Assembly (NCBI GenBank): GCA_947561395.2
Contig: OX387189.1
Span: forward strand, 20,894,329 to 20,958,328
DNA: 64,000 nt
Reading direction: 5' to 3'
DNA from: Buxus sempervirens
Taxonomy: Eukaryota > Streptophyta > Magnoliopsida > Buxales > Buxaceae
Below the pieces are notes generated by a model. It did not search any database. It was not told the DNA's origin and saw nothing but the letters and a program-made list of their open reading frames with translations. Below, piece after piece: positions 4,281 to 56,298 of the stretch (positions are counted from its first letter, which is position 1; every line of letters begins with the position of its first letter). The position numbers and the translations under genes were made by a program.

Positions 4281-4510
4281 TTGTATCCGACCAAATATGT
4301 CGGATACAAAGATTTTATCGGCGAGATTCGCGCCGATCGCCAGACAAATTTGCGGCGGCATTAAATTTCGGAATAATTATGTTTTGTATCCGGCATTTAA
4401 TGCCGGATACAAAGAGAGGAGTGTATAGCCGGCCATGAAGGCCGGCTATGAAGGGTTGCTAGTGTATCCGGCATACAATGCCGGATACATTAAGTTTTCT
4501 TATAAAAAGG
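4281..4510 (+). promoter_or_regulatory. U3 palindrome array and TATA box of LTR A
   Basis: Four palindromes precede a TATAAAAAGG box (4501-4510). They are TTGTATCCGAC with its complement around a 7-base loop (4281-4309); TTTGTATCCGGCATT with its complement around a single T (4383-4413, a near-perfect 31-base palindrome); ATAGCCGGCC/GGCCGGCTAT (4425-4449); and TGTATCCGGCAT with its complement around ACA (4478-4489 for the right arm, left arm from 4463). The last ends about a dozen bases before the box. This fits dimeric transcription-factor sites in an LTR promoter; the factor is unknown. Confidence 0.65.
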
Positions 4511-6529
4511 GGGCAGCAGCCCCCTTCCTGATGGTTGGATTTTTTTTCGGCCTTGAACCTTCTTTGCCCACCCTTGCCTCTCCGAATCCCTCTCTTCTCA
4601 ACCTCCCTTGCCTCCACCACCTCTCCACACCACCCTAGAGTTGCTCCACCTCTCCTTCTCCTCCTCCTTCACTTGAACCCAAAAACAAGAAGAGAAGCCA
4701 TTGCTGTTGCTGTCAAGAGGAGGAGTTCCCGGCTGTGGTGGTGCTCCAAGAGGATCACATATTTCCACCAAGAAGTTTAGAACACTAAGGTAAGGCTCCC
4801 TATCCCATTGTATTCAACATACATTAAAGCTGAATTTTTCTACTGTTTTTTTTTTTCATTTTTCTCCTCTCTTGGCATGAGCACTTCCATGGTGGCTCAA
4901 CCATGCATTTACCACCTTTTGCATGGCATGAATGCCACCACCAGTAAAAAGCCCACGTAGGCTCGTAGGGAAGCACGTGAGTCTTTTCTTTTGCACCATT
5001 TTCAGTGTCCTTTAGTTGTTGTCCATGGGGTCATCTTGGGCACTCTCTTAGAGGAAGTATGTTCCTTGATTTTCATCCAATTTATCCCTATAACAGCCCC
5101 CATTCCCTTCTTGTCTCTTCTCTCTTCTCCCACCTTCTTATATCTTTTTTTGGGGAAAGATAGTTGCTGGGCATAGCCTTGTTCTAATGTTTTTATTATT
5201 TCTTTTTGTTGCTGTAATATGCTTGCTTGAACCTGCTGTTTTTTTTACTAAACCATGCATGCTATGGATTACGTGTGCTGACCTTGTCCTTAGCCTTTGC
5301 TGTTTTTTTTATATATATGTGTGTAAGCATGCTCCCCCGCTCCCCCTCATCTCGTAACCCCCTAAGAATGCTTGCATGAGCTGCTGCTGGGAACAGCAGC
5401 AGCATTACCACTCACTTCCTGCCATCCCCTTACACTTGCTGTTTTGTCATTGCCGTGTGCACCACACCCACCTTGGTGTTTAGCCCCTAAGAGCCATGCA
5501 TGAACCCCTCTGTTTCCCTCTTTTAGGTTATGTTTCTAGCACTTTTTGGCATGTTTAGATACTATAGTGGCTGCTGTTCCTCTCTGGTACAGCAGGTTCT
5601 TTTTTTTTTTTGTCTTACTTGCTTTACATATGTGCACAAGTTGTGATTTGCTGTTTGGAGCCTTGGCCCAGGTATGCATGCTTTCCCCCACCCAATATCC
5701 GTGCATTCCCAGCCCCTATTACATGCTAAGCCCTCATTTAACTAATGCTGTACATCTACCTACAGCAAGCCCTTTTTAGCCTCTTGATAGTGCATGCATG
5801 AGGAGCCTTTTCACTTCGTTGGATTATTATGATAAGTGACCCCACCATAGGCTTTTTTAATCCATGAGCATGGTGCACCTGAGCCGCTGCTGGAAGCAGC
5901 AAGAGCACCTCCATCCTCGGCATATTACCTCCATGCATACACTTAGAACTCGCTTGGAGGTTTGCTGGTTCTACATGCATGGCTTGCTTGCTTATTTACT
6001 GCCTTTTTTTTGTTTTGTTGCATATACATACAAGCATTATCCTTTCCTTAGGAATTTGTTGTCTTTTTATGTACCAGTACATGCTTCCCTTCTCTCTAAA
6101 TCTAGTGCCTTGAGGTTTGCACCCCACCCCCATATTTGAGCATAATCCAAGTCCTATTAACGTGAGCATGTGGGTGGGTTTTAGCCTACTGTTTCAGTTA
6201 CGGGAGTGGGCTCCCCTCTTTGGTATGATTTACTGTTTTTCCCTTGGGGTTTAGCCCCTTCTATTGACTGATATTTCATGTGCTATAACCTATATTGCTT
6301 TGTGATGATCCTGTATGTTTTCGGTGGGCCTCGTCCTTAATCTTGGACCATGCACCGATTGGTTAGGTGGGAACCGGAAATTGGGGTGTCAAGGCCCCCA
6401 TGCCACTGCTGGAATTATAGAAAGGAAGTGAGGAGGGGCAGCAGCCCTAGGCATCTCCTCTTCCCCTTTGATTTTGCTAGAACACCCCCAAAGGGAAGCC
6501 AAACAAGGCTTCTCCCCAAGTCTGAACCA

Positions 6530-7450
6530 ATGTGGGCCTTATCCGGGGCCCACATGACTTGTAGAAGACCCCTAGGAAGCCCCTGGAAGCCACCCCAATG
6601 GCCAAAGCCCGAAAAGGCCATTTTTGTGGTGATCCGGCAACTCAAGCCGGATCACCTATGGCTTGTGTATATCCGGCAACTAAGGCCGGATACACACAGA
6701 AATATAGTTTTTATGCTTTTTGGGGTTCCTTGACGAATTTTGAGATGGTTCGAACCAAACCAAGTGAACCAATAGGGTTTCCGGGCTGCCCGGAAACCCA
6801 ACTTGGGACATGGACCGCCGGTCCAACTCGGAATACCCGTGGGCCTACCAACGGGGCCCACCAAGCCCAGTAAATCCTAAAGCATGCAAAATAAACAAGC
6901 TAAGCAAAAGTCACTTGATCGAACCGGGCGGGCCAAACCCAATGCGGCCCACCCGAACCTTGTGGTGCGGAATGATGTTTAAATTGCGTGGTTTGGCCGA
7001 GACCCAGGGCAAGGGCCTATTGGGCCCACCAAAGTCCACTAACCACACCAAGTGAGGGTTTAACCCTAACTGCATGGAATTTGGGCTCTCAAGCCCAAAG
7101 CTGGATTATGGGCCCCAAGCCTGATGTCCAGAATACCTTGGCCAATTTTAAGAAGGTAAATTGAAAATACTTTGGCATCCACCATGGGGGCCCACTCAGG
7201 GGCCCGCCAACCAATGCAGACCAACCTCTTGCATGAAAATCACCTAAAATTCCAACTTAAACAATTAAGTAAAATCAACTCACTAACCTAAACCCAAAGG
7301 GCCTCCTAGGACTAGACAGAGGCCCACCAGAGGCACGGGGGCTTAACCTCGCCCACCAAGGACATTGTGGGCCTTCCAACGGGGCCCACCCAATCCGACT
7401 CAGATCACCTAAAATAAGCAAGATAAAATCAATTAAAGGGACCCACACCA
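6530..7450. repeat. GGGCC/GGCCC-rich stretch of LTR A
   Basis: About fifteen GGGCC or GGCCC words, many within GTGGGCC, GGGGCCCACC or TGGGCCCACC, are spread over 900 bases. The same stretch recurs in LTR P (18480-19060), in H in reverse (2525-3090) and in LTR D (31190-31560). GTGGGCCC-like words match the known binding preference of plant TCP factors (site II elements). The DNA shows only the density; factor binding is inference. Confidence 0.6.
6633..6697. repeat. Second palindrome pair in LTR A
   Basis: Two palindromes, GTGATCCGGCAACTCAAGC with its partner GGATCAC and GTGTATATCCGGC with GCCGGATACAC, stand next to the GGGCC-rich stretch. They correspond by position to the palindromes at 2852-2996 in LTR H, where an antisense TATA box follows. 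Here the equivalent of that box, read on the minus strand, is CACAAAAATGG and looks decayed. Confidence 0.55.
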
Positions 7451-8339: not shown

Positions 8340-8654
8340 TTGTAACCGAAATCAAATTTCGGATAAAAGGTTCTCCCTTTGTATCTAAAAATAGATTTCG
8401 GATACACACTTGTTTATTTGTATCCGAAATATTGCTTCAGATACTAATGTTTTGCTCCAAATTGGAAAATCCCGACAGTTTTCACTTATTTACTGTTTTA
8501 CCTCTGTCTGAGAAGTGAGGATTCCCGAATTTAACCTTCGAGATTAACCATATTCTTCCAAGTCCATGCATTAGGGTTAACTTGGAGGGTTCTAGACATA
8601 TTTTTGTGTCTACCATTAGGGCTCCCTTTGCCCTAGCTCTTGCCTATAAATAGG
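8340..8654 (+). promoter_or_regulatory. U3 palindromes and TATA box of the B 5' LTR
   Basis: Palindromes built on GTAACCGAAATC/GATTTCGG, GTATCTAAAA/TTTCGGATAC and GTATCCGAAA/TTTCAGATAC occupy 8340-8440, and a TATAAATAGG box follows at 8645-8654. The 3' LTR has the same layout with one palindrome more (56810-56931, box near 57131). Here the palindromes are about 200 bases upstream of the box, not adjacent as in LTR A. Confidence 0.6.
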
Positions 8655-16263: not shown

Positions 16264-16845
16264 TGTAAGAACCTTGTTTTTGCACCCCTGGAAGTGCTGA
16301 AAATGCAAAACCCGGCTAAAAGGTCAAACCCTGAGGGGTCGAAATTTGACCTTTTGATCAAGTGATAATTGGCCGCCTTGCTTTATCTCAATGGATAGAG
16401 AATCCCGACACGAGTCCAACGCAACTGAGTTTACTGGAATCGGAGTCCGGATGAGGGTTCTGTGGGCCGGTCAAACTTGAGGGTGAGCCGAAAGTTGACT
16501 TTTCCTCGAACCCCGTGCCAAGTACTTAGCCCTATGTCATTGGATGGAGGGCTCCGATACGAGTCTAACGCAATTAAGTTTGCTCAAATCGGAGTTCGGA
16601 TGAAGGAGATATGAGTTGTCGAAGTTTCCGTGCAGCAAAACCGGAAACTGCACACGTGGCGAAGAAACTGCGCACGTGGCGATGAATGCAACGAAATATC
16701 TCAGGGACTAAATCTCAAATATCCAAAAATCATCAAATATCTCAGGGACTAAACTAAAATTCGCAGGGACCAATCCGTAATTGCTCAAAAGTGTCAAATC
16801 GGTTGAATCGGTCAAGTCGAGGGGCAAATCCGTAATTTTTCGATT

Positions 16846-17113
16846 TGTATCCGGCATTTAATGCCGGATACACTTGCCTCTCTTCATATCCGGACTCAAA
16901 TGTCGGATACAAAGATTTGCTCGGCGAGATTCGTGCCGATTCCCCGACAAATTCGCAGCGGCATTTAATTTTCGAAATTATTATGTTTTTTATCCGATAT
17001 AATATGCTGGATACAAAGGAAGTGCAGTGTATTTGGCATAATATGCCGGATACAAAGGAAGTGTAGTGTATCCGGCATTAAATGCCGGATACATTAAGTT
17101 TTCTATAAAAAGG
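16846..17113 (+). promoter_or_regulatory. U3 palindrome array and TATA box of LTR P
   Basis: Five palindromes precede a TATAAAAAGG box (17104-17113). They are TGTATCCGGCATT with its complement around one T (16846-16872); ATATCCGGACT/TGTCGGATAC (16886-16910); two weaker ones near 16990-17015 and 17028-17055; and TGTATCCGGCATT with its complement around one A (17068-17094). The last ends ten bases before the box, as in LTR A. Confidence 0.65.
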
Positions 17114-18254: not shown

Positions 18255-18362
18255 TTGATCCGGCAACTTAGGCCGGATCAACTGAAACCCATGTGTAACC
18301 GGCTAAAGATGCCGGATACACTGAGCCTTGTGTGTAACCGGCATCTCAGGCTGGCTACACTA
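18255..18362. repeat. Second palindrome cluster of LTR P
   Basis: There are three palindromes: GTTGATCCGGC/GCCGGATCAAC, GTGTAACCGGC/GCCGGATACAC and GTGTAACCGGC/GCTGGCTACAC. Their arms mix the words GTATCC, GATCC and GTAACC, which shows that the word drifts while pairing persists. They are the counterpart of 6633-6697 and 2852-2996. Confidence 0.55.
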
Positions 18363-24366: not shown

Positions 24367-24526
24367 TGTATCCGAAATTTATTTTCAGCAAAAGGGTTTT
24401 ATGTGTGTATCCGAACACTATAAGTGTTCGGATACAATAAATCATGCCTTTAGCCAACCTGATATGTCAGATACAACTTAGAAACTTCCAGATTGTTCTT
24501 TTATCCCAACTTTTTTGAATATAAAA
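24367..24526 (+). promoter_or_regulatory. GTATCCG palindromes and TATA box upstream of gag in B
   Basis: A perfect palindrome, GTATCCGAACAC with its complement around TATAA (from 24408), stands between two weaker ones (24367-24388 and about 24453-24474). TATAAAA follows at 24520-24526. This copies the LTR promoter layout, but inside the element about 1.4 kb before gag. It may be a second sense promoter or a relic of an old LTR; no LTR ends are visible around it. Confidence 0.5.
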
Positions 24527-25760: not shown

Positions 25761-25805
25761 GGGACATGTTGGGAGCCTTAAAATATTCCAACAATTCTTT
25801 TAACT

Positions 25806-25853: not shown

Positions 25854-25969
25854 AAAATAATAATAAAATACAAACTCATGTTCACCTAACTTGCATACAT
25901 GCATTCATAAGTGTGTAAATAAGCTATAAATTGGTATTGACATATTTCTTTCTTTTTCTTAATCCAGGT

Positions 25970-28300
25970 ACCAGTATACTTGCAACCATTACTCCTGTGA
26001 CCAAATCAAGGGCCCACACAATGAATCCAGCTGAGAATCAAACCAATGATCTTGCTCAAGACTTTGCTCAGCTGCAAGAGCAAGTTGTGGGGATCGCCCA
26101 AATGCTAGAAAACTTGCTGGCAACCCAAGCCCAAGCCCAGAACCAAGCCTCTACTTCTCACCAAGCACCACCACCAGAACCTCAAATACCAATTCCACCA
26201 TAGCCACAACCTCAACTTGAATTTCACCAACCAATTCCGGAACCTATACTGATCAGGGAGGACAGTGTTGAATCTGAGAAGAAGAAGGAAAAAGAAAGAG
26301 TGAGGGAGGAAATGGAAAGAAAGTTCTTGCATAGGCTGGAGAGTATCTAGGAGGAACTGAGGGAAGTAAAGGGGGTGAATAATTTCAGAGGCACCAATTT
26401 CGAAGACTTGTGCCTATACCCTGATGTCTGCTTACCAGCCAAATTCAAGTGCCCGGACTTTGACATGTACGATGGTACTGGTTGCCCCATGAGTCATCTG
26501 AAGCTCTATTATGGGGCCCCATGCTAATTTGGCTGGGATGACAGCATTCTCATCCAGCTATTCCAGAGAAGTTTGACGGGAGCTGCTTTGAGGTGGTTTG
26601 CCACCATGGATCATGGATGGATAAGGAGGTAGAAGGACTTGGCGGATGCCTTTTTGGCCAAGTATAAATTTAACTCAGAAATTGTGCCAGATAGGTACGA
26701 CGTGATGAGGATGAGCAAAGGTAGAGATGACTCAGTGAGGCAATATGCCAAGAGGTGGAGGGAGACTGCTTCTCAGGTCATGCCACCTATGTTGGAGCCA
26801 GAGATGATTTCAACATTCATTATTACACTAGGGCAACCGTTTTACAGTCACTTGGTGGGTCAGACTACCACCAACTTTGCTGCCCTAGTACAAGTGGCTG
26901 ATTGGATTGAAGATGGGATCAGATTCGGAAAGATAATTGATCATTCAGCCATGGTCAGTCAACAGGACCCCAACATGAAGAAAGGAAACGGGATTAAGAA
27001 AAATGGGAACAAAAAAGAGGGGGAAGTGAACATGGTACAGCAACCATCCATCCCCAAGAATCTTATCCAGATCAATGTTTCCAACCCTCTTCACACTCCG
27101 ATGTCATCGGCCCAATCCACCCAACAAGCACCCATAAGAGTTAATGTTCCAGCAACACAGTCAAACTAGAAAAGAGTTTTTACTAGGGAGGAAAGGGATG
27201 CTTGGATGGCATCGAGGAGGAATAGGATTCTTACCCCTATCCCAATGTCTCCATCCCAATTGCTACCTACTCTATTGCAAGCTGGGTATGTTGCCTTAAA
27301 AGAGCCAAATCTAAATGCATCCAAGGGGAGAAATTTTGACCCCTCCACCACTTGTGATTTCCACATGAGTGCACCTGGACACCCTACTGACAAGTGTTGG
27401 CCATTGAAGCAAGCCATTTAGGATTTGATAGACCAGAATACCCTGTCTTTCAATACGAGGGGTCCCGCTCCTCCTAGAACTAACATTGGCCAAAACCCTT
27501 TGCCCCAGCATCATGGGGCAAGCCCATCTAATGTTATAGGGGCCACTTTCTCTGATGAAATAACATTTGACCCATCTCAGTTAATTGCTCCTATAGGGAC
27601 TTTGGTCAAGGTTTATTTTACTAAATAAATGGGGGATGAAGAAATAAACATGATTTCCAAATGGAATGATCGTGCTGCTAAGGATATTAACTCCTCTTTG
27701 GACCGGGTCTCCTCCCTCATGGCCTAGATAAATATTGTGAAAACTCCCTTGGTTATCAATTGCAATCCACCCACTGTTTCTTCACCCATTCCATCAAAAC
27801 CACCCTTGGTCATCAATTGTGACCATGTTGCCACTTCAGTTACATCCTTACCCACTTTAGCTTCAAAGGCATCTCAACCACAAGCTTTCAAGCAACTTCC
27901 ACCCTTGGTTATGAATGTTCTTTCGACTCATGTTGTTACTAAATCCGTTTCTTCAGCTAGGTCCAAGCTTCCTCCCCTTGTGATAAATGTCTCGAAGCCT
28001 TTTTCTTCTGAATTAGCTGTACCATGGAATTACAGTGAAGGCTTCACAACCACAATTCCAGCGGTTGAGGTAGAAAACAGTAAAGAAGTGAACTTCATGA
28101 TGAGGTCAGGGAAATGTGTAGGAGAGGGAGAGAAACAAAAGGAAATTGAGAAGGAAAGTAAAGAAGCTGAAGAGGAGAGGAAAGTAAATGGAAAGGCGAA
28201 GGTAGGAGAAGAAACCCCTCAGGTAATTGACGGCGAGGCTACTAACCTCATCAAGATAATTAGAAAGAGTGAATTCAACATTGTTGAGTAGTGAAACAAG
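25970..28300 (+). mobile_element. gag region of element B
   Basis: The region encodes a Tat/Ogre-type Gag, the structural protein of the virus-like particle. The N-terminal part has a coiled-coil-like stretch (LAQDFAQLQEQVVGIAQML) and a proline- and glutamine-rich linker. The retrotransposon gag domain follows, with KFKCPDFDMYDGTGCPMSHL, RSLTGAALRWF and DSVRQYAKRWRETASQV. A zinc-knuckle-like segment, CDFHMSAPGHPTDKCW, lies near 27355-27405, and a basic/acidic tail near 28080-28290. It is related to the Gag of element C (37267-38778). It is a fossil with several breaks. Confidence 0.85.
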
Positions 28301-36535: not shown

Positions 36536-36594
36536 GATATTGAGTTCAATTCATTATAAGCAAGCTCCGGTTCATTAGGGCATGAGCCAAGAGG

Positions 36595-38778: not shown

Positions 38779-41309
38779 AGAAATCAAGCAAGGTTGCAAG
38801 GCGCAACCAACTCCCGGACATGGTTCTCCTCCAAGTCCACCATTTCGAGGCTAAGTTAAATTTTTTTTTTTGCACCGACTATCCCGAGCGGGATCAATCA
38901 TTTTGTAAGTGTTTTTGCATACCTTTACTTTCATGCAAACTTTAAAAACTTTTGAAAGAATAAATAAATAAATAAGAAAAAAATAAATAAAAATTGGCAA
39001 GTGCTTGGTCGATGATGACATCGCTCTGAGACCACTACCTTTTTGGCATGACCATGATCATGGAAAGATGCCAAGTTGCTCAAAGGTGTCTTCAGTTGGG
39101 TGCAAGATATTGCTCCCATGAGAACCTTTACTGAGCCAGTGGCCATCCTTTCCTGATCCAGACCCTGATTTTCCTTCCACACCTATCTTTACATTGGGCT
39201 AGAGCGATCCCTGAGAGCAAAGAGAGGAAAAGAAAAGGAAAGAAAAAGTGCCTAAACCAACTAAGGGTCAAGGCTGACTTTTGCATCATGTCTTTGAGAA
39301 AGGATGAGAGGCCATCCTTCTGCATCCTGAATCAATAATCGCTAGTCAAACACTTTGGGCTTGTTCGTGTTATTCAAATACCTGTATTGTGTCTAGCCAC
39401 CCCACACTGGGGCAGAGCCAAAAAGAATAAGAACAAAAGGAAGCAAACTATTCCTGAACAAAATTTGCATCGAATACCTAAACCAAGTTGTCACAACTTC
39501 TGCAAAATGATGAAAGGCCATCCTTGCTTATCTATCAAGTCTTCAAAACAAAATCCCTAGTCAAATCAGTTGAGCCTAATTTTTTTTTCTAACCCATTGA
39601 GTCATGAGCCCTAAACATAGTGCTTGGTATGAAAGAAGGAAAAAAAAACATGGATGTGCAAAAATGAAGCAAAAAGAAAATAGAAAGCACACTAGGGCAT
39701 ACGAATCAAGGCGGACACCCAAAGCAAATGAAAGAAAAGGGCAAGGAAAAGGCGAAGGTCGCAAAAGACCCAAAAAGAAAATGAAATAAATGAGAAGGCA
39801 TTGACAAGGCCCAAGCAGTCAAGAAAAGGTTCAAAACATTTGTAAAACTTTGAGCCATCTTCCCTTTCTTTCAAAAACCAAGACCTCAGACTTCGTTTCA
39901 TCCTATGAGAAAGTCCTTTTTGATTGCAGAAAATGTGACATTTGGATCTATGTAGATCAGTGATGAAGGAATTGTAGAACCTCTGAGAGTCAATGACGGC
40001 ACAAGTCAAGAAATTCATGAGAAATCCTGTCAGGCACACTGTCTCAAAACACCTCAAGCTAATAAGGCAATTTACCATGGTCATTGGTCTTGCCTTTGCC
40101 TTTTAAGCACTTGCACAAAGTTTCTAAGAAAAAGTTTTTTTTGAAAGAAAAAAAATTTGTTTTCATTTCATTCCTATGCATTCACACACAAAAATAACCA
40201 CGTAAGCCACAAGTGCTTACATTTTGAATTTCAGATACCTCACTATTATCTTGAGAAATTTGCAGGCCCACGTGAGGCGGGAAATCAAATGGTTTTGATA
40301 CTGGAGCTAAAAAAAAGAGCAAACAGGCAAAGGGAAAGAGAAGCAAACAAGGGGAATTCGCCACAAAGAAGATGAGTACACTCAAAAGGACACACAAGCT
40401 TCTCATCCAAGACCCCACCAGAGAATGCCGAAAAGAAAGCAAGAGAGGTGACACCTTTCTCTACAAATGCCGAGTGGAATTTTCCTTGTCAAGAAGAAGT
40501 GATTACCCAACAGAAGAAGAATACCAATTGAAGAGAGAGACATTGTCAGAACATGAGAACCTCAGATAGGCGAAAGAATGGCGCCATTCTACATAGAGAC
40601 ACACTGGGTGAAACAGAATGACAGATGAGAAGGCTCTCATAAAATTCCCAGAAGAATTTTCCTTTAAAAGGGAGTCTTACAAATCCCAGTGGAGAATCAT
40701 CAAGGACAATAAAGCTCAGGCAAGCTCAAGAACAAGAGGAGAAGACGTGTTTTGAAGATTTAAAGGACAGAGAAGGCCCTCATGTAATTTTCATTTTCCC
40801 ACTTTTGTATCATAGGACCTAAACCAGGATTCGGATTTCCTCGGTATGCTGGGCAGCAGTGACTCTTAGCCAAATAGAGTTAGGGGGTAGTGCACCTACA
40901 TGGGGGATAAAGAACTTCAAACTTTAAAAAAAAAAATTTAATAATAGTAATAAAAAATAAAAAAAAAAGTGAATAAATCTGAAAAGATAAAAGAAGAAGT
41001 CAAAAGTCAATGGAACAAACAAGAAGAAAAGAGCATTGTTGAAGCACTTTTGCATCAACGCCGAAACAAGTCGGTGAGTCTAAGTCCAACCAATCATTTT
41101 CAACTTAAACTAAAAAAAAGGGAACAATTCCAAACGCCCAACAGCAAGGAAATTCCCCAGAACTGGGAAGTGAGCCAAAGCGACGTAGAGCTTGCACCAG
41201 CGCTTCCACATCTTTGAAAACATTAAAGGACTTGACTCATCGGTTATGTCGATAGAAATGCAAAATGCAAAAATAGGGTTTTTTTTATTCTTCACCTTGG
41301 TGACTCTGA
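38779..41309 (+). mobile_element. Post-gag region of element C without pol
   Basis: Where an autonomous element has pol, this has 2.5 kb with no recognisable domain. Phrases such as AAAGGCCATCCTTGC, ACACTGGGGCAGAGCC and ATCCCTAGTCAAATCAG recur. The wording resembles the post-pol stretch of element B (CATACTGGGGCAAAGC near 49036), which suggests that pol was lost and the 3' untranslated part kept. A/G-rich stretches give several meaningless frames. Confidence 0.65.
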
Positions 41310-41323
41310 CAAAGAGGGGCAGC
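41310..41323 (+). other. Polypurine tract of element C
   Basis: CAAAGAGGGGCAGC immediately precedes the 3' LTR (TGTCAGCACC). Element B has nearly the same tract, GCAAAGAGGGGCAGT, before its 3' LTR. Confidence 0.85.
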
Positions 41324-43505
41324 TGTCAGCACCCCATTTTTGCACTATAAAATTGCCCAAGAAGAATATCTTAAACCGGCATATATGTGGGCACGTAAAT
41401 CGAGGTTTTTATAGTGGACCCATCTTTTTGAAATAACAAGCCCATAATAAAGAGAATTCTAAGCCGATTCTGATGCACGAAACCGTGCTCAAATCGGATG
41501 TCAAACGGCTAAGTTATGAATAAAATAAATAAATGGTAGTTTGGGGATTTTTACAAAACCGAAATTGGATGCCACATGGCAGCCACGTGTATGCCATGGT
41601 GGCTGCCATGTAACCAATGACAAATTAAAATTTTGTGGGGTTGTTTTAGTAAATAAGTAAGTTTCCTAATGGGGTTTCTTATGCAAATAAATAACAAAGT
41701 TAATAAAAGTTTAAGATTAAAAAAAACAATAATAATAGAAATAAACATAGAGAAATGAGTTGGACGAATTGGTCCAACTCATATTCTCTTGAGATATTGA
41801 AACAAAGCTTAAAAAATATATAAGCCTAATAAAAATGTGGGACAAAATGGACTTTCACCAAACCTAATTGAATGAGGGTGTTTAAGAGAGGAAGAGGAAG
41901 GGTTAGTTGTTTAAGAGAGGAAGAGGAAGGGTTAGTTGTTTAAGAAGAGGAAGAGGAAGGGTTAGTTGTTTAAGAGAGGAAGAAGAAGGGTTAGTTGTTT
42001 AAGAGAGGAAGAGGAAGGGTTATTTGTTTAAGAGAGGAAGAAGAAGGGTTAGTTGTTTAAGAAGAGGAAGACGAAGGGTTAAGGGTTTAAGAGAGGAAGA
42101 GGAAAGGTTTGGGATTAAGAATTTGAAGGGGTGGGAATCCTCTATAAAAGGACTTGAAGTTGAGAGCAAAAGGGGGAGAAGAAAAAAGGAGAGAGTTCTT
42201 TAAAGCAAAGAAGGAAGAAAGAAAAAAGGTGGAAGAAGTTTGTGCAAGAAAAAGGGGGGAAACATCCGGAGTTGTGCTCACCAGTTTCCGGGAAATCGAC
42301 TCCATACCAGGTTTTTATTTTTTTTTATTTGTTGATTCTTTAATCAAGTATTTTTTTTAGTATTGTTAAATTGTCAAAGTGAAAATAATACAAAGCATGT
42401 TATTGTTATGGCCGAATGTGTTATTTCATGTTAGTGTTGTTAAATAAAGCATGTCACGGTTATGACCAAAAAAAAAAATTTCTGTTGAACGATTTTCTTT
42501 GGGAGTGGAATTTTGAGAATTTGATAAGCTATCATGCCTAATTTGCTATTCTGAAAAGTTCAAGGATTTATAAAAGAACTTATTGTATTTTATGTTTAGT
42601 CCTTCTTTAAAACCCTTTTTTAAGAACCCCTAGGTTTCATTTATTATTTCTTTATTTCTTTCATGTTATTTCTTTAATTCTTTTCTTAATTTCTTAATTA
42701 TTTTTAGATAATATGCTTAATTAACATATTTAACTATACTAACCAGATTTTTTTTATTCTTTTCTTAATTCTTAGATAATAGGCTTAACTACCATATTTA
42801 ATTTTAATCATAAGCTTAAACATTTGTAACTTTTATTAATTTCTTATAACACTTCTCATCTTATCCAAATCCTTAAAAAATGGAAAAATAAAGTGTAATC
42901 TTCAATGATTAAATATGATTGAAATTTTTTACACATGCTTTGTGGAAATAAATTATCATAAAAAAGAAGAAGAAAACAATAAAAATGATTGGGATAATGG
43001 AGCATGTTAATTCCTCTAATCTCTTGTATATATGAGAAATATAAGATAAAAAAATAAATAAAAAATAAAAAGAAAAAGAAAAAAAATATATTTTGAAGTA
43101 ACCAAGTACATTGCTCCATGATAAAATGTTTGATTTAGATTTCTTTATTTTGGACTTTTTATATATGTATTATACATGATGTAGTATAGCAACCTTCATT
43201 CCTCCAATATTTGTATACATGTGATCATAAAAAGAATAAATAAAAAATATATAAAAGATAAAAAAAAAAGAAGAATTAAATAATAGTAAAACAACCCAAA
43301 TATTATCCAACTAATTTAAGGAAACCCATTTGGGTGGGGCAACCCAGGGTGTTCAAGGACTTCCCTGGGTTGTAATCGGGTCACTTATCCGGAATCACTG
43401 GTTCAGACCAAAAGTCAACAAGGTGTCTACCTGCACCATTTCAGGTAGTGGCGACTCCATAAAAGACATGTAACACCCTTTTTCCACACGCCCGAGGTGC
43501 GCACA
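41324..43505 (+). mobile_element. 3' LTR of element C
   Basis: This 2182-base copy is nearly identical to 32351-34444. The length difference comes mainly from about three extra GAAGAGGAAGGGTTAGTTG units. TATA box and palindromes are conserved. Confidence 0.92.
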
Positions 43506-44692: not shown

Positions 44693-45600
44693 CACCTAGA
44701 ACAGAGAAGGAAGTTAGGGGTTTTCTTGGAAGAATTCAGTACATTAGTAGGTTCATAGCATAGTTAACTGCCACCTATGAACCAATTTTCAAGCTTCTAA
44801 GAAAAAACAGCCCAACAGTCTGGAATGATGATTGCCAACAGGCCTTTGACAAGATAAAGGAATCTTTGCACAATCCACCTGTGCTAGTGCCACCAACTCC
44901 GGGAAGACCACTGATTCTGTACTTGTCAGTTTTGGAAACATCAATGGAGTGTGTATTGGGACAGCATGATGAGACGGGCAGAAAGGAAAGGGCGATTTAC
45001 TGTCTGAGTAAGAAGTTCACAGAATATGAAGCCAAGTATTCTCCTTTGGAAAAGACCTGTTGTGCTTTAGTGTGGGCTACTCAAAGACTGAGGAATTACT
45101 TCCTCAGTCATTCCACATTATTGATATCCCGGATGGACCCTCTGAAGTACCTATTTGAGAAACCGGCATTAACTAGTAAAATGGCTAAATTGCAGCTCTT
45201 GCTTTCTAAATTTGACCTCAAATATATCACTCAAAAGGCAATTAAAGGTCAAGCAATTGCTGATCACTTAGCTGAACATCCCTTGCCAGACTACCAACCT
45301 TTAAAGACTAACTTTCCGGATGAGGCAGTGTTTTTTACTGAAGAAGAGGAAAGTGAAAGCTCCTGGCAGATGTTCTTCGACGGGGCCACAAACATGAATG
45401 GAAATGGAATTTGGGCAGTTTTGGTCAAGCCGGATGGGTCACATATCCCAATCGCAGTAAAGCTGAGATTTGAATGCACGAACAACATAGCAGAGTATGA
45501 GGCATGTATAATCGGGTTGCAAGCTGCTCTGGACCATGAGATAGAGGAATTTGATGTATACAGAGATTCGAGTCTTATCATCTTCCAAAAAACCGGTTAA
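44693..45600 (+). mobile_element. RT thumb and RNase H regions of element B
   Basis: After the LTR insertion the pol region resumes with connection-type sequence and the retroviral-type RNase H (ECVLGQHDETGRKERAIYCL, SPLEKTCCALVWATQRLRNY). A second, archaeal-type RNase H follows (WQMFFDGATNMNGNGIWAVL, FECTNNIAEYEACIIGLQA). Two RNase H domains in this order are known for the Tat lineage. Part of the broken pol region. Confidence 0.88.
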
Positions 45601-46501
45601 TGGAAAACCATAGATCACAAATTGATCCCATATCACCAGTATTTGGAAGAAATAAGCACCAAATTTACTCGAATTTCCTTCAGCTATATGCCAAAGGCCA
45701 AGAATCAGTTTGCAGATGCTTTGGAAACATTGGCTTCAATGATCAGTATTCCAAAAGGAGTAGATATCAAAATACTGGAAATTGAAGTCAGAGATGAACC
45801 AGCTTATTGTCTTGTTCTAGAAGGAGTACCAGAAGAAGAAGTACCATGGTTCCAGGATATGTGGAAATTCTTAAATGATCGGAGTCTTCTAGAAAATGAT
45901 ACTTCTACTGAGAAAAGGGCAATACAGAGATTAGCAAGACAATTCTTACTAAGTGGTGGGCAGCTATACAAGAGATCACATAATGATATTCTACTCAGAT
46001 GTGTTGCCAAGGCTGAGTCAGAAAGGTTGATTGAGACTGTACATGGAGGAGTCTGTGGACCCTATATGAATGAGCACATGCTTGCAAAGAAAATTCTGCG
46101 ATTGGGATACTATTGGTCAACTATAAAGTACGATTGTTGTGTACATGTTAAGAGGTGTCATCTGTGCCAAATATATGCAGATAACAAGCATGTACCACCA
46201 AGTGAGCTGCACAACATGACCTCACCATGGCCTTTCTCCATGTGGGGCATAGATGTCATTGGCATGATCTCCCCAAAGGCATCAAATGGGCACAGATTCA
46301 TTCTGGTAGCAATTGATTGTTTCACTAAATGGGTTGAAGCATCTTCATATGCAAATATCACAAGCAATCATGTTCTTAAGTTTTTGAAGCACAATATCAT
46401 TTGTCGCTATGGTCTGCCAAATGCCATAGTATTAGACAATGCTTCAAATATTAAGAACAAGGATATGAAGAAGTTGTGTGAGCAGTTTCAAATCACCCAT
46501 C
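45601..46501 (+). mobile_element. Integrase region of element B, first part
   Basis: After the end of the second RNase H (FSYMPKAKNQFADALETLAS) comes the integrase zinc-binding domain (VHGGVCGPYMNEHMLAKKIL, then CHLCQIYADNKHVPP). The catalytic core begins at MWGIDVIGMISPKASNGH and continues IDCFTKWVEASSY and RYGLPNAIVLDNAS. It is interrupted after 46501 by the solo LTR at 46502-48324 and resumes beyond it. Confidence 0.88.
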
Positions 46502-48324
46502 TGTAGACACCCCAAATTGCACTTCAAGATGAGAAAATAATTGAAAATATTAATTGGGATTTGAAACAGGTCAAAAAAGTATAAAATCTGGCCAAACTGG
46601 TTATGCCCGTATTTTGTTTACGGTCTGGTCATGCCCGCAGTTGATATACAGGCACGGCGTGCCCGTATTAATAATACGGGCAGGGCGCGTCCGTAATATA
46701 TATACGGGCACGGGGGTTTTTGTGCGAATTTATCCTTTCTCGATTTTGGAGCCTTATCTGCACCCAAATATCTCTCTGAGAGATTCGAATTCTCTCATTT
46801 ATCCCTTCGAAATCTCTTATTTATCCTATTTGGCAATGGATTGGCATTATCCTTATTTTTAACCCAATTTAGGAAGATCCTGGTATATCCTTCTGGACCA
46901 GCCATACCCCTGTGTTTGCCTATAAATAGAGGAGCTCTCCTCAAGCAAAAGGCCACGAAATTTTGAAGTCCAAGGAGCTCCAAGAGAAGAGAGGAATCCC
47001 TGCTACTCTGCTTCCTCAATCCAGGTAAGTCCCTTTTACCTTTTATTTTCTGTCTTCAATTCTAGAAGTAATAGGATCTTCTCTATTGCTGTAGAATAAG
47101 GCCATCTTTTATTCTGTATTCCTAAACTTGTCTCTAAGTACCTCAAGAGTCTCCCTAGCCGTAAAACGTGAAGAGAGAGCTAGGGGAAAGGGGAACAGGT
47201 GGATCCCTAGAATAGAACCCCATATCTGTTTTTCTCCTTTTTTTAGAATAAAGCCTTTGATTGTGTTTGTATAACCAAACCTATCTCCAAGTACCTCAAG
47301 AATCCTCTCTAGCCGTAAAACGTGAAGAGAGAGCTAGGGGAAAAGAGAACAGGTGGATCCGTAGGGTAGACCCCCATGAGCTCTAATCTGTGAGATGTGG
47401 CTGCTTTGAATATCCTGATCATGTTTTAATTGTTTTTATGTTGAATTTGAATGAATCTTATGAATCCATGATGTTTATAGCATGAGATCCCCACTTTTTC
47501 CTAAAATTTGGATTTCACCACTTTTTCACCTACAGCACTGTTTTCGTGATTTTTGTGATATTTGGCTAAGATCCTAGATCTATCATGATCAGTATGATAG
47601 ATCTGGATCCAGAAGTCTGAAAGTAACTTCTAGGGTTTCATGATATGGTTTTTGAGTTGTTTTTCATTAATGAGAGAAAACCCTACGGTCTAAGTTCTCC
47701 CCTTTTGATGTTCTTCATCAACGTGGGTATTTTTGGTTTTTATTTCTTGATTTAAGGTGAAATTTGGGCTATACCTATATCCTGGACTATTCAAGTTCAA
47801 TTTTGCAATGTTTTATAAAAATCATATTTTTCTAGATTTCTAGAATTTAACTTGAAGCCAGATTTTTGAAGTTTTCACTTTAGATTGGTTTTATTTGATT
47901 TTATCTCAATTTTGTTTTAATCATGAAACCCTAGGAATGGTATGATCATATTTGAAAGTTATAGATTAATCAGGCTATTCATATGAAAAAACCATACACT
48001 TTTGTCTTTTTGTGATTTTTTATGATTTTTATAGCAAGCCCTTTTTTCCTTTATTTTTAACATGAACAATGCCTGGCAACCATCTTGTCTGGATGAATAG
48101 GGGTGCCTAACACCTTCCCCTGTTCATAACCTAATCCCCTTACCTATCTCTGGTTTTTTTTAATAGGGTTATTTTTACCCTAAAATTGCCTTTTTAAGCC
48201 TATTTGATATTTTGGTGTCCATTCACACCTAAACAGAATGGTGGCTTTTTTGACTCTGTGTTTTTAACCAATCCTGTGAGATGATCGGGAAGTCATTGAA
48301 TTGATTTTTTCCCCATGTCTCACA
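46502..48324 (+). mobile_element. Solo LTR related to that of B (element E), TSD CCATC
   Basis: It starts TGTAGACACCCCAAATTGC, ends CATGTCTCACA, and has exact CCATC repeats on both sides (46497-46501, 48325-48329). The 1823-base length without coding domain marks a solo LTR. Layout and wording resemble the B LTR: palindromes, a TATAAATAGA box (46921), ACCTCAAGAGTCTCCCTAGCC phrases given twice, one copy of the GAGAGAAAACCCTACGGTC block, and the CAACATGAACAATGCCTGG stretch near the end. The U3 palindromes use GCCCGTAT instead of GTATCCG. It interrupts integrase. Confidence 0.92.
46602..46715 (+). promoter_or_regulatory. U3 palindromes of solo LTR E
   Basis: GCCCGTATT with its complement around AAT forms a 21-base palindrome at 46670-46690. 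GTCCGTAATATATATACGGGC and GCCCGTATTTTGTTTACGG are weaker ones. They lie about 210-320 bases before the TATA box, the same spacing as in the B LTR. Confidence 0.6.
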
Positions 48325-48329
48325 CCATC

Positions 48330-49870: not shown

Positions 49871-49879
49871 AAAGGAGCT

Positions 49880-50830
49880 AGTCCCTATCCCCTAGCCTCT
49901 CCTCAAGCTCCCGAATCTGAGCCGCCTAAGCTACAATAATCCCAGAAGCTCCCTCTGCATCCGGATCGCTCAAAAAGGAGATGACCTCATCTGAAAGTGC
50001 CTGCTTGATCCTCATACTTCTAAGGCTAGCTAAAGCATCCTGGTGCTTCTGCCGTATCACTCGGACTTCAAAGCGATGAGCCTACCTCTACTCCTCAAGC
50101 TTCTCTTCCAAAGCAATGCGGCGAGACACCTGCTCGGCAAGTTGCCTCTCCAGATCAAGGCCTTGGATCCTAAGTTTTTGGGCCTCTCGTACCCAAATTT
50201 GTTGAAGCCGTTTGTGAGATGCTCTCTCAAAAACCAATATGTATTCGTAAGTGGGTGCAAGAAGAGCAGGAAGATCCTCTGGTACTGGGGCACGATTCTG
50301 AACCTGCTCTCTGATCCAGAAAAGGTAGTCCTTCACATGTGACTCAGAAACGACTGGGCTCCTCATGAAGCGCACATAGGACCCTTCCTTCATCAACCGA
50401 GCACATAGCCCCATGGTGGTTTGTGTAAGTGGCCCCAGGAAGTCCTCATATCCATCTGGGATCATGATCCCTTGAGTCCCTCCAAGCTGCCGAAGGACCC
50501 TCAGAGGAAAGTAGAGAACAGCAGATCTCAAGCCTACTAGAACCATGAAGTTCTTGTTTCTGAAGCTGATCACCGTCTCGGGGTTTGGCTGATAAGTGCC
50601 AGGCCATTTCACCTGATCATCCTGGAGAGTGCCCAAGAAAGTAAACCAACCATGTTTGCCACCTTGGATGTTAGGACACCCCCTGTTACTCATCAAAACA
50701 AGAACTTTCAATCTTGTGGAAAAGCGTCGATCAATCATCTCGATCTAACTCGAATGGTCAAGTAACCAAAGCTGCAAAAAGAGGGAGTATTTCAGTCCAT
50801 TTTAGCTTCACAAGAAAGTTGTAAAAAAAA

Positions 50831-50861
<31 letters not shown>

Positions 50862-51500
50862 GAAGAAAAAAAGAAGAAGAGAGATTTTACCTGTAGGATA
50901 GGGGCACAAGTGAGAAAGCGCTTCTTTTTCCTGAAATGGCAGTCAGTCAGGGCTTGATACATCTCTGCCAAGATCATAGGGGATAATCTCTCACGTTCCT
51001 TAACCTAGCATATGACTGAAATTAGAGCCAATTCAACCTCGTCGTCACCTCATGGAAAGAGTAGCTGGTTGACCACTATCAAAGTCAAAGCATTAAACCA
51101 GGCCTGCCGGTTTTCACCCCTTAAGAGTTTTTCAGTAAAAAAAGTCTTGGATAGGGTCAGCAAGGTGTCGGAGTCCCCTATATCCTTCTTCCATATACCC
51201 AAAAAAGTGGAAGCTTCTTTTTTGTAGCTAGGCTTAAGTGGCGAGTTCACCACTTTCTTTGAAAACCTTAGGCTAAGGATCGTTTCAATTTCCTCAATGG
51301 TCGGGGTCATTTCTTTATCACCAAATCAAAAAAGATTCAGCTGAGGTTCCCAATGACCAATCAAAGCCTCAATGATTTCCCATTTAAAAGGGATGGTAGG
51401 GATAAGCAGGATATGGCCTAAGTTGGTAGAATCCCACTGGATGCCCTCTTCAAGGGTCATGGAGTTAACCCACCTATTGTAGAATGAGTCTACAATGTTG
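49880..51500 (-). mobile_element. Antisense gene region 1 of element B (Tat aORF, PMD-like)
   Basis: On the minus strand the region encodes, in order, IPFKWEIIEALIGHWEPQL (about 51410-51355), MTPTIEEIETILSLRF (from 51310), a middle part with FTEKLLRGENRQAWFNALTL, and from 50738 a 216-residue open segment containing YFPLRVLRQLGGTQG and a coiled-coil tail (LDLERQLAEQVSRRIALEEK). The W.P.....ELTPTIEE....L pattern and the later LRQLG segment are what I know from the antisense frame of Tat/Ogre elements, related to plant mobile domain proteins. Such genes face pol tail to tail. Its role in the element is not established. It is a fossil with a few breaks; splicing cannot be resolved here. Confidence 0.7.
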
Positions 51501-51705
51501 TATCTAGTGAGATTAGGGGGTTTTTATCTAAACAGTTGTTTTGCAGGGGAAGCTTCATTAGTAGAAGATAACAGGGCGGAAGATGATCCAGAGGCTATTA
51601 GGGATGAATGGAACTTGTTAGAATCAAGTGGAGGGAGAAAAAACGAAGAAAGGGAGTTTTCTAAACTCAAAAAGTCGTCACAATGACGCACATCCCGAGA
51701 TACTT

Positions 51706-51908
51706 CTATTTTATACTCTGCTTAAGTGTATCTGAAATCTCAGTTCGGATATAAATATTGCCTTTCATATCCGAAATAATATTTCGAATACAAATTATAT
51801 TATGTGTATCCGAAATATTATTTTGGATACAAGCAATATTAAATGTATCCGAAATTTTATTTCGGATACAAGCAATAAGTGCATTTGCCGACCTATTATT
51901 TCAGATAC
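51706..51908 (-). promoter_or_regulatory. Palindrome cluster and TATA box before antisense region 1
   Basis: Read on the minus strand, five palindromes (51728-51752, 51767-51791, 51805-51830, 51845-51869 and a weaker one to 51908) lead directly to a TATAAAATAG box (51706-51715). The clearest is GTATCCGAAAT with ATTTCGGATAC. The nearest palindrome is a dozen bases upstream of the box, the same layout as in LTRs A and P. The antisense coding sequence begins about 200 bases further on. Confidence 0.65.
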
Positions 51909-52082: not shown

Positions 52083-55030
52083 CTATCCCTCTGCAGGTCC
52101 ATCCCCACGTCCTCTACCGCGTCCTCTGCTACGGCCTCTGGCTCGGGGTCGCCGGCGCCCAAAGACATGTGTCAGAATACGATCAGCAGCGCAGCGCTCC
52201 ACCCGGCCCAAAATGGACTGAATTTGGTACCTATAGTTATAAGAGGAGTTGTCAGGGAGTGGACCAATAGGAGCAGAATCCGATGTAGAAGCCTCAGGCT
52301 CAACAAGAGCAGGCTCAACTAAAAGGATGGCCGCCTCAGGCTCAACAGGATCCTCAGTCAAAGTAGCCTCAGCTCCCACAGCTCCAGAAGCCTCAGCAGT
52401 AGCAGGAACAGGGACATCTAGTTTAATAGAAGTGAAGTTAGAAGCTGAAGCATCATGATCAATTAAAGAAATGAAACTGAAGCAAGCTTACCGGGGATAT
52501 CAGCAGTAGGAACCGTAGGATCAAGAACGGTCACAGGAGGTGATACACCGATAGGATCTGCGGTGGAAGCAGGAGCAGGAGATGAGGTGGAAGCAGGACT
52601 GGTGGCCGGGATGTCATCGAGATCAGTGGCATGAACTATAGACGAACCACAAACTGGAAGGTCTGGCTCAGCAGGGACATCATCAATATCCCCCACGGAG
52701 GTAGAAGGGCCTGGATGGTCGAATTCTTGAAAATCACAAATGGATAAGAATCAGTATCAATTTGCAGAAATAAAAGATACCAAAATCCTAAAGGAGACAT
52801 ACCTGATCATAGGCACGAGCTGGACTCCGTGGATAAGCCTACAAAACTCGAGCAATTTCTATTAGAGAGTCAGGGAAATACAGAAAGGATAAATAAATTT
52901 AGAGAGAACTATGTACCTGTCTAGTCCCAAGCTCAGCCTCCAAGTCCGAGATGCGGCTGTCCCTCTCTGCGACCAGAGCCTCCAGCTCTCTAATCCGAGC
53001 ATCTCTCTGAGATACTGTCGCATCATGCTCAGCAATCAAATCATCAGCAGCTGCTCGCTGGCCCTGAAACCGGTCCCTCAGAGCATTCAACTCCTCTACC
53101 TGCCAATGAAAAAGGGAATTAAAGTCATAAATACTGAATTGAAGGAAATAAGATGGAAGAGGCAAGAATAAACTTACAGTGTCGTCATGAACTCGGATGT
53201 AGATCCCACCAATCTCGGTCACTCCAGCACGAGTAGGCCGGTCCATCAGGCACCTAATAGATACCCTCCTGATCCACTCATCGTAGTCCTTGACTACCGT
53301 AAGTCCCTCTGCATCCTACCACTGATCAAACTGGTCAACATCAAACCCAGGTAGGAGGATGGTAGGACCAACAAGAGGAGGAAGAACTGGAATACGAGGT
53401 ACACCAGTGTGCTGATAATACAATCGCTCGCCTAGATACATAGCCCTACCAAGCCTCCCAAGGAAGCACTGGTAGGGCTGGCGTCAGAGATCTCGATCAA
53501 AAGCGTCATGTACTATAAGCTCACGAGCAAACACCGTCATCTACATCCTTAAAGCGTGCCAACAAGAGCTGCAAAGAAGAAGAAGAATGTCAGGAACAAA
53601 CAAGGAATGAAATAAAGAGACAAGAGATAAAGGGTTAAGGAATTTTACATTGGATCGTCGGGCACAGTCCAGGTGAACCCGAGCCGAACGGGGCTGACTC
53701 CTATCCGCATCCCTATCAAGCACAGACCACCGTATAGCTACGGGGAACTCATCAGCATCAGGCATAGGGGATGGACAAAAATATGTCATGTAGGTGTACA
53801 TGAATATCTAGCAAAAAAGAAACCAGTCTGGGGCGAAAAGATAAAATTTTGGAATAAAATAAAGCAAATGCATTCAATACCTGTAAGATTTGCCAGAAAA
53901 ATCTACAGCTAACACCATCTCCCCTCGGAGCGGCTAAACCTCGGATGGCTCGGCATAATTTGGCTAAGATAGTCTCGTCTATAAGCGGACCCCATGCTTG
54001 CTTTCTAGTCTGGCAGAAGTCTCTTAGGGCATCCAAGAAGAGAGGATTGACCGCAGTCGTGTCCTCCTGGACGAAACAGCTCCCAAGCATCAGCAAGAAA
54101 ATATGCCGAAATATAGGTGCAAAGTCCTCGTCCTCTGCAGTACTGGTCGCATGCCTCCCATCAAAGCGATCAATAAGGCTACAGCGTAGCCAGCTAATAA
54201 GAGTCGGCCGCTCCTCCCATCCCAAGCATCATTGGGTAAGACCGCATATCCTAGGAGAGAGCTGATGTCCGTATCAAAAGGACGATCCATCACAATAGTC
54301 CACCCCACCAAAGGGATGCTAGTAATCATAACAAAATCAGAAGGATGAATCCCAAGCTCAACATCTGGCAAATGGAAGGACTGCGTATCAGGAAAATATC
54401 ACTCCATCATGACATAGACAAGAGGGCGGTCAGCTCGGAATGAGGGAATAAGGGAATGAGTAGGACGTGGTTGAAGCGGCACCGACTGAACTCGCATCTA
54501 AGCGCAGGAGAAAGCGTCCGAACCAGCTCGTTGAACCTCCCCCAACTGTCTCATAGATGAGAATGCGGAGATGGAAGAGGAACATCAGCCCTGACGCACA
54601 TAGAAGGATGGCGATCCAAGCCACTAAGGAGCTCTGTGTCATGAAAAGATGCTCTCAACTCCTCTAAGAAAAGCGGAAGTCTGGAGCAATGTCCTCCTGA
54701 GTCTGATCTGAAGCTCCAACTCGGCCTCGGCCTCTACCACGGCCTCTCTCTCGGCCTCGGCCTCTACCCCGACCTCAATCGGGAGCCACAATGGGCTAAA
54801 AGTCAAAAGAGAAAGGGTGAAAGTATTTTTGACAAGAAAGAAGAGGAAGGGAAAGAAAAAGAGAATAATAAGTGGCCTACCTCAGCAGAACCCTCTCCAG
54901 AGCTCTCTCTGGAATCATCCAATGGCTCGGATAAGGTGGCACTCTGATCAAACTCGATCCTAGCTCGAGAAGAAGAAAGCTGATCAGCTGGATCAACCTC
55001 CTCTCGCACATGGGAACGACCTCTAGCCAT
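52083..55030 (-). mobile_element. Antisense gene region 2 of element B: plant mobile domain (PMD) gene
   Basis: On the minus strand, from 55030: an N-terminal segment (MARGRSHVREEVDPADQLS); PMD-like sequence near 54370-54220 (FVMITSIPLVGWTIVMDRPF) and 54220-53870 (FRHIFLLMLGSCFVQEDTTA, QAWGPLIDETILAKLCRAIRG), which fits the PMD pattern RAYLLYLLG..LF...YSWG...LA.LYRALC; a coiled-coil segment near 53110-52920 (VAERDSRISDLEAELG); an acidic Ser/Pro/Thr-rich part; and an Arg-Gly-rich tail (RRPRARGRSRGRGRGRG). PMD genes (MAIN/MAIL family) occur in plant hosts and in Ty3/gypsy and MULE elements. Coding segments alternate with non-coding ones in a way that could be introns. Integrity cannot be judged by eye. 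Confidence 0.65.
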
Positions 55031-56218
55031 CTACAGGCAACAGGGAAGTGTTTTATATTGCTGTTTAACTACAATTTTGTGTTTAATTGTTTATCAGGAA
55101 TTTTGACTTTAACCCCTAAGTATTCCCACTAATCCTAAAGATCTCTACAAGGCTTAATCTCTCCTAATTTTTTGTGATCTCAGGATTACCAGATGTACTC
55201 AGGAAAGCAGAACAGATATGCAGTACAAAAGCAAAGTGAAGAGACCAATATTGCATAAAAAGGTTTTAGTTGATCAGTGATCAAATCAAGAATTGCATGC
55301 AATCAGTCTCAAAGAATTTCAGGATACAAATCAAGAATTGTAAGCCTATTTCAAGGACTACCAGGATACCAAAGTATGGTAAATTTGGGTGGTCATGCAA
55401 ACTGGGGAATTAACATGGAATCCATAAGGCAAAGATTACCCAAGGGCAAATCATGGAAAGATCCTGGCAGTTGAAGCACCACCTTGATCAGAAGTACACT
55501 AAAATCAGATTGGAAAGTCAAGGTAGATTGCGAAAAAAGAAAAAAAAACAGAAAGAGAAAAGAAGAAGAACAGATCATAGCATGGTATTTGGAAATCTGA
55601 AAGTGAGCATTTGAAGTAAAAAAAAATTTTTTTTCATCACCGGCAATTCAGTTTGAAATGATCAAGAAGAATTTCATGCAATTCAATATGAAATAAGAAA
55701 TTCAGTTGGAAATCACCACCGGCAGGCAATCCAATGTTCTCAGTTACTGTCAATTTGAGGGCATAGGTTTGCACACATATTTCAGAGATTACCAAAGCTA
55801 CAAGCTTTATGCAGTCAATCAAATATTGAGAGATTCAAATAAAAAAGAAGGGGTGTTTCTCTTATTTGCTTACCGATACTGTTTGAGTGGCAAGAACAAT
55901 ATAGAAATGAGCAGCCGATTGCAAACGTCAAATGAGGAGCAAGGAGTGTAGCCTGAGTTGCCGAAACTGAGATGAACTCATCGGAGTTTATGCGACGGCG
56001 TCAAGCAGCGAGTTGTCGTCAAGAAGTTTGCCCAGAAGGAAAGGAAGTGAAAAGGGCTGAGCTAGGGCTTAGCCGCAACAGTGAGCAAATGATTGCCAGA
56101 GCTAAGGAAGTCGCCGGAGAAGGAAGGAGACGAATGTTCATCTGAGAAGGGAAGATCAGTGTCTGCCCTTTTCATTTGGAGAAGGAAACAAAATGTAGGT
56201 CACGATCGAGCACGCAAG
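55031..56218. mobile_element. Region upstream of antisense gene 2 in element B
   Basis: No coding domain is visible. Repeated phrases such as ATCAAGAATTG, AATTCAGTTTGAAAT and CACCGGCA occur. On the minus strand it would be the 5' untranslated and promoter-proximal part of the PMD gene. Confidence 0.5.
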
Positions 56219-56298
56219 TAATATAGCCTAGTGTATTTGACAATTCATGTCGGATACAAATAGAGGTTTGCATATCCGAACACCTATTTCGGATATAG
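56219..56298 (-). promoter_or_regulatory. Palindromes and weak TATA before antisense gene 2
   Basis: TGTATTTGAC/GTCGGATACA (56231-56258) and ATATCCGAA/TTCGGATAT (56272-56296) lead, on the minus strand, to GGCTATATTA (56219-56228). This repeats the palindrome-then-TATA layout, with a poorer box. The antisense start codon lies about 1.2 kb further on. Confidence 0.5.

Follow-up and report, generated by a model that had tools for sequence, protein, structure and literature searches.

What does a repeated palindrome do when it stands in the long terminal repeats (LTRs) of plant retrotransposons, ahead of gag and ahead of genes read from the opposite strand? The question is raised by a stretch of Buxus sempervirens DNA of 64,000 nucleotides (contig OX387189.1, positions 20,894,329 to 20,958,328, in the 676.5-Mb assembly GCA_947561395.2), referred to below as the window. 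Four elements inside it, named A, P, B and H, contain clusters of palindromes with the arms GTATCCG..CGGATAC; stretches elsewhere in the genome have L-numbers. The arrays form a cis module that is conserved among Tat/Ogre-like retrotransposons and stands ahead of gag, of two antisense genes and of the promoter in the LTR; a TATA box often lies 11–12 bp past its last palindrome.

Phased palindromes and TATA boxes

All eight palindrome clusters described in the original prediction were located at the coordinates given there (Table 1), and an altered palindrome absent from it (4425–4449 in A) is still in register. Three arrays with altered arms, at 2853–2955, 6630–6693 and 18256–18358, are additional to those clusters. 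Exact GTATCCG-N(0-20)-CGGATAC sites number 10 in the window and 0 in 100 shuffles. With the 11-base centre fixed and up to two arm mismatches allowed, the window holds 28 sites and five simulated sequences hold 0.

The palindrome measures 25 bp and consists of two half-sites (GTATCCGNN); with a spacer of 14 bp between palindromes this gives a 39-bp register. Centre-to-centre distances in the window are 39 bp in 16 pairs and 78 bp in 5, every other distance occurring at most 3 times. In a sample of 21 stretches (198,334 bases, 65 exact palindromes), a mean of 9.98 of the 14 arm bases match at the neighbour 39 bp away, as against 3.43 at 38 bp and 3.50 at 40 bp. The information content of 73 in-register neighbours, retained at 9 or more of 14 matching arm bases, a filter that somewhat favours the arms, is 0.98–2.00 bits in the arms, 0.09–0.98 in the spacer and 0.05–0.70 at the inner bases 9–17. 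A palindrome of 29 bp in front of gag (24407–24435) is likewise separated from both its neighbours by 14 bp, so it is apparently the spacer length that is held constant. It follows from a 25-bp palindrome and a 14-bp spacer that half-site centres alternate at 18 and 21 bp, and the 21-bp step would correspond to two helical turns.

Across the assembly, exact palindromes were counted 30,737 times and the same pattern read backwards, as a control, 25 times. All 50 distinct exact palindromes among the matches listed are 25 bp long. For CGGATAC-N(1-31)-GTATCCG, 50 distinct sites among the matches listed comprise 34 with a 14-bp spacer, 2 with a 13-bp spacer and 14 that begin inside a palindrome. 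The original prediction had named an even spread as the outcome that would count against it; in the listed part of C1 the spread is uneven, with 6 of the 50 distinct palindromes in the first 3.37 Mb and 44 in the next 1.15 Mb (C1:3.38–4.53 Mb).

TATA boxes had been predicted within roughly 10–45 bases of the arrays in A and P, before gag and before antisense gene 1, and the gaps measured there are 12, 11, 45 and 12 nt; antisense gene 2, for which no box had been given, has one as well (Table 1). Genome-wide, CGGATAC-N(5-35)-TATAAA has 5,591 sites and its backward control 1,045, and CGGATAC with an opposite-facing TTTATA within 5–35 bp has 1,926 sites and its backward control 1,389. The TTTATA control itself contains array sites and therefore understates the contrast: of its 42 sites listed up to C1:19.25 Mb, 14 represent the same site in the reading TTTATAAA, and among the remaining 28 there are 15 with N=11, apparently decayed next palindromes. 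The gap between CGGATAC and TATAAA, taken over 100 sites among the matches listed, is 11 bp in 36 and 12 bp in 39. An unrelated repeat with a gap of 34 bp makes up 10 of these 100 (e.g. G000:C1:908907-908953). A palindrome-free promoter pattern, TATAAATGCAACCNGCCTCGGGATTTG, occurs 493 times genome-wide; on C1 up to 19.25 Mb it has 16 sites, of which 11 were read, 10 with CGGATAC 12 bp upstream and one (L036) with a one-base variant there.

The antisense genes, gene 1 of the DUF7745 type and gene 2 with a plant mobile domain (PMD), were found in B, L036, L037, L041, L043, L045, L046, L047 and L049, stretches picked mostly for carrying arrays, which show layout and not frequency. Arrays of gene 1, gene 2 and the LTR come in this same order in L036, L037, L041 with L044, L043, L045, L046 and L047, the gene 2 array of L047 being one weak palindrome. 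L049 has both genes, and the gene 1 array is the only array seen. The original proposal of a module common to the genomic-RNA and antisense promoters is well supported by this layout, the TATA distance and the genome counts; the use of these promoters stays a prediction.

Half-site bases 8 and 9

Pairing between the two halves was analysed in 130 distinct 25-mers, i.e. palindromes with up to three arm mismatches. In 109 of them base 8 is paired with its counterpart, and in 81 base 9 is (shuffled means 65.8 and 44.9), levels reached at either base by 0 of 2000 shuffles. No excess pairing was found at bases 10–12 of these 25-mers, and arm positions 1–7 show weak symmetry, just positions 3 and 4 pairing above most shuffles. 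Sorted by bases 8–9, palindromes genome-wide are GC/GC in 6,434 cases, AA/AA in 369 and mixed in 20, where about 3,080 mixed GC/AA palindromes are expected from independent halves; as copies are related by descent, such pairing counts are inflated and show concerted halves, not event numbers. The arms can change in the same concerted manner: the symmetric variant GTAGCCG..CGGCTAC occurs 1,214 times and the one-sided variant 1,271 times, with about 13 symmetric ones expected from independent halves, an excess inflated by the relatedness of amplified copies.

Bases 8–9 are mostly AA in B, where half-sites starting AAA make up 6 of 8 in the LTR and at least 11 of 18 in the internal arrays. They are GT/GA in the L036 group, GC in L041 and mixed in L045 and L047. 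LTR and internal arrays were compared in five families, perhaps not all independent (L037, L043 and L046, of the same family as L036, were omitted, as were L048 and L050). Agreement at bases 8–9 is 0.655 within the same element and 0.371 between different ones, a contrast matched by 2 of 120 permutations. The corresponding values are 0.398 and 0.384 for the centres (15 of 120 permutations as high) and 0.352 and 0.350 for the spacers (48 of 120). An earlier version using five inner bases gave 2.49 for the same element versus 2.00, again rank 2 of 120. That agreement is limited to the recognition bases points to selection by a factor matched to the element and not to the copying of repeat units. 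The single family-wide factor originally proposed has to be modified, since bases 8–9 differ between families while agreeing within an element; specificity looks matched to the family.

In all nine copies read, CTGA occupies one and the same position in the palindrome adjoining the TATA box of gene 1, pointing to a single ancestral palindrome. At bases 8–9 this palindrome has, on both sides, AA in B, GT in L036, L037, L043 and L046, and AT in L049.

A family-matched factor and its rivals

Judged from these sequence patterns, the module probably works together with a dimeric factor of family-matched specificity. The arrays would be proximal promoter elements beside TATA boxes, bound by a sequence-specific dimer reading the symmetric half-site, and if its preference at bases 8–9 differs by family, the same factor would govern the genomic RNA and the antisense genes of one element. 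The DUF7745/PMD proteins are the obvious element-matched candidates by analogy to VANC (PMC5735166). That the factor is, or is recruited by, such an antisense-gene protein is our leading suggestion, plausible and put forward with reserve. A DUF7745/PMD-linked factor would set up a self-regulatory or anti-silencing loop. In a more specific version, which we offer tentatively, the antisense proteins may be the dimeric regulators that read GTATCCGNN in their own promoters, their preference at bases 8–9 co-evolving in each family.

VANC is a factor encoded by VANDAL DNA transposons; its binding is demonstrated, and co-evolution is proposed with a short tandem motif that lies in non-coding parts and varies between related families (PMC5735166). 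The target motif described here is likewise tandem and varies between element families at bases 8–9, a VANC-like trait. In contrast to VANC, we are dealing with an LTR retrotransposon, unrelated proteins and candidate sites, and the accessible part of that paper presents the VANC motif, YAGTATTAY, without calling it a phased palindrome.

Several observations weigh against an element-encoded, family-matched factor acting beside TATA boxes, in addition to the descent of the copies and the possible dependence among families mentioned above. The closest TATAAA in the B LTRs is 200 nt past the array (57132–57137 in the 3' LTR), no TATAWW was found within 220 nt of the H array, and the L036 LTR has its TATA about 160 nt off and lacks a close box. 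L045 is not its own best match in the family comparison, L041 and L047 match themselves by a narrow margin, and bases 8–9 are unequal between the halves in 3 of the 9 TATA-proximal gene 1 palindromes (L041, L045, L047). Around top-scoring PMD/DUF7745 hits, 20 loci were inspected and none has an in-register array; L029, which is among them, shows 74% identity to gene 1 in a match that contains two stops. Nor was such an array found in the nested element at about 32350–43505. For the gene 1 protein we found neither a known DNA-binding domain nor a solved relative, a PDB search with L041 gene 1 to E 1 giving no match. Lastly, in L040 (G000:C1:18389500-18398999) pol with dual RNase H lies between two LTR-type CGGATAC-TATAAA linkers of the same kind 19.1 kb apart, and the 9.5 kb read contain no DUF7745/PMD match and no array. 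The LTR site hence seems able to exist without those genes in the part read, and L040 is possibly a user of a factor made elsewhere.

The main rival is a transcription factor of the host, fixed in its arm specificity, that drives LTRs and antisense genes alike, bases 8–9 being incidental family signatures; a MYB-related protein binding GGATA-like cores would be a candidate. This would account for the seven arm bases being almost constant across families, and for the LTR-type sites flanking L040, where the part read shows no antisense gene of this kind. However, incidental bases should neither pair within palindromes nor agree within an element when spacers and centres hardly do, and symmetric GTAGCCG..CGGCTAC palindromes outnumber, by an excess inflated as noted, what independent halves would give. 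We regard a host factor as a serious possibility, though on balance a doubtful one.

It is unlikely that the arrays act as nucleic-acid structure or as silencing targets, that is, as hairpins of the genomic RNA or as CG-rich repeats drawing small RNAs and methylation, an attraction reportedly proposed for the LTR palindromes of maize Sireviruses. Every palindrome could form a hairpin, each half-site contains a CG, and arrays sit both in promoters and within the genomic RNA. Yet the outer arms are constant and not covarying at most positions, bases 10–12 are unpaired, and structure alone would fix neither the 14-bp spacer nor the 11–12 bp TATA distance. A passive minisatellite, a functionless 39-bp unit tandemly duplicated and spread by transposons, is hardly credible: tandem repeats are reported as frequent in Tat and Retand elements (PMC11963269), but here arms and register persist although spacers and centres have diverged, and the arrays recur at four promoter-like places.

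Parts of the module have counterparts in other plant elements. Sireviruses (Ty1/copia) are described as having many palindromes with a CGG-CCG core a little way ahead of the TATA box in the LTR; members with env have them 5' of env too (PMC2829016). Repeated palindromes upstream of an LTR TATA box are thus shared, whereas B has the pol of a Tat element, its arrays precede antisense genes and gag, and polarity (CCG..CGG), the 14-bp spacer, TATA at 11–12 bp and family-specific bases 8–9 differ from the Sirevirus pattern as far as it is described there. Retand and Grande have antisense genes (TRP28 and gene23) between pol and the 3' LTR with a proposed regulatory role; gene23 has its own promoter, and tandem arrays lie near such genes (PMC11963269, PMC7264820). 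They share with B the antisense genes and nearby tandem arrays, with TRP28 in place of DUF7745/PMD, and the accessible text of these papers does not describe a palindrome module common with the LTR. A PMD is reported in 57% of Ogre elements (PMC6317226), and two PMD clades are restricted to Gypsy elements (PMC5418596); these elements resemble B in their PMD gene, and a cis module is not mentioned in the parts of the two papers available. Host PMD proteins (MAIN, MAIL1, PP7L) are required to express genes with a shared promoter DOWN motif, a link reported without direct binding being shown in the accessible text (PMC7156037, PMC9899485). The DOWN motif of MAIN/MAIL1 targets (CATGCAGTTT) was considered as a match and rejected, as it bears no resemblance to the GTATCCG palindrome. 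A search of the literature, reaching few subscription journals, returned no such module in its best-ranked titles and abstracts.

New against these systems are the phasing, the antisense promoters and recognition bases that are specific to the family. Plant Gypsy elements often carry PMD genes, whose role in them has been called unknown (PMC9289625); a target site that is defined and countable, with bases particular to each family, opens this role to testing. If a family-matched, element-encoded factor is real, it would give element-encoded PMD proteins a function in a VANC-like loop of an LTR retrotransposon, explain how genomic RNA and antisense genes are coordinated in a 20-kb element, and might reveal the origin of host PMD silencing pathways.

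Element B and neighbouring features

Table 1. Palindrome arrays, TATA boxes and coding regions in the window (positions 1 to 64,000)
Feature	Position	Strand	Details
Array with symmetrically changed arms	2853..2955	-	GTAGCCG/CGGCTAC type, 39-bp steps; strand from inverted relation to A and P
A, U3 array	4283..4488	+	palindromes 4283, 4386, 4425 (changed arms), 4464
A, TATAAA	4501..4506	+	12 nt past array
A, second array	6630..6693	+	TGATCCG..CGGATCA; ATATCCG..CGGATAC
B, 5' LTR array	8342..8444	+	palindromes 8342, 8381, 8420
P, U3 array	16847..17092	+	palindromes 16847, 16886, 16990, 17029, 17068
P, TATAAA	17104..17109	+	11 nt past array
P, second array	18256..18358	+	about 1.15 kb downstream of P U3 TATA box
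B, pre-gag array	24368..24474	+	palindromes 24368, 24407 (29 bp), 24450
B, pre-gag TATAAA	24520..24525	+	45 nt past array
B, gag region	25919..27955	+	59% identity to L042 gag frame, 698 aligned positions
B, pol pieces	44764..46503	+	RT_RNaseH and RVT_3 in one frame, integrase in next
B, antisense gene 1 region	50088..51715	-	DUF7745 type, broken frames
B, antisense gene 1 TATAAA	51710..51715	-	12 nt past array
B, array ahead of antisense gene 1	51728..51908	-	five palindromes, 39-bp steps
B, antisense gene 2	53806..54664	-	plant mobile domain, broken frames
B, antisense gene 2 TATATT	56220..56225	-	7 nt past array
B, array ahead of antisense gene 2	56233..56296	-	two palindromes
B, 3' LTR array	56790..56931	+	palindromes 56790, 56829, 56868, 56907
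H, array	60002..60207	+	palindromes 60002, 60041, 60144, 60183

The pol of B has the Ty3/gypsy dual RNase H layout, as in Tat elements. Its gag region contains a frame (26633–27166) with a weak Retrotrans_gag match (E 0.01), and the pre-gag array lies about 1.4 kb ahead of gag, the distance that also separates a similar array from the start of the L042 gag frame. Downstream of gag, a weak G-patch match (E 0.0012) is present at 28910–29272 (+); this domain is known from some plant Gypsy elements (PMC9289625).

Direct domain matches of the B antisense genes are weak and below the Pfam cut-offs (DUF7745 in region 1, E 0.0017 and 0.0076; PMD in region 2, E 0.027). Matches in related copies are strong, with DUF7745 in gene 1 of L036 (E 7.1e-19) and L041 (E 1.5e-19) and PMD in gene 2 of L036 (E 6.3e-14), L037 (1e-13), L045 (4.7e-12) and L046 (2.9e-13). 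By tblastn, B 50888–51715 is 72% identical to the L041 gene 1 frame over 276 aa; the aligned stretch begins at the TATA box and its beginning is therefore not coding. Three pieces of B gene 2 are 66–73% identical to gene 2 of L046, and the extra PMD gene of B, weak directly, is clear by way of this frame. Modelling the structure of the window's longest gene 1 piece gave nothing usable (mean pLDDT 40.2). L048 and L050 were considered as antisense gene 1 arrays and rejected: they look like LTR arrays, with 104- and 105-bp gaps as in A, P and H, and have no gene 1 match.

The nested element mentioned above has direct repeats 97–98% identical and its own gag (37240–38775), which is 38% identical to the L042 gag over 451 positions. 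The A array is preceded at a distance of 213 bp, and the P array at 223 bp, by lone homologous palindromes of the form GTTTCCG..CGGAAAC (4070–4094 and 16624–16648). Palindromes of another type, GGGTTTCCGG..CGGAAACCC, come after the second arrays of A (~6780) and P (~18440), and an inverted, less exact relative of this type lies near 2790, after the 2853 array. Another PMD family is arranged as two same-strand PMD frames 3.42–3.45 kb apart (e.g. G000:C4:42315242 and 42318696), with at least 12 such pairs among the 117 matches listed.

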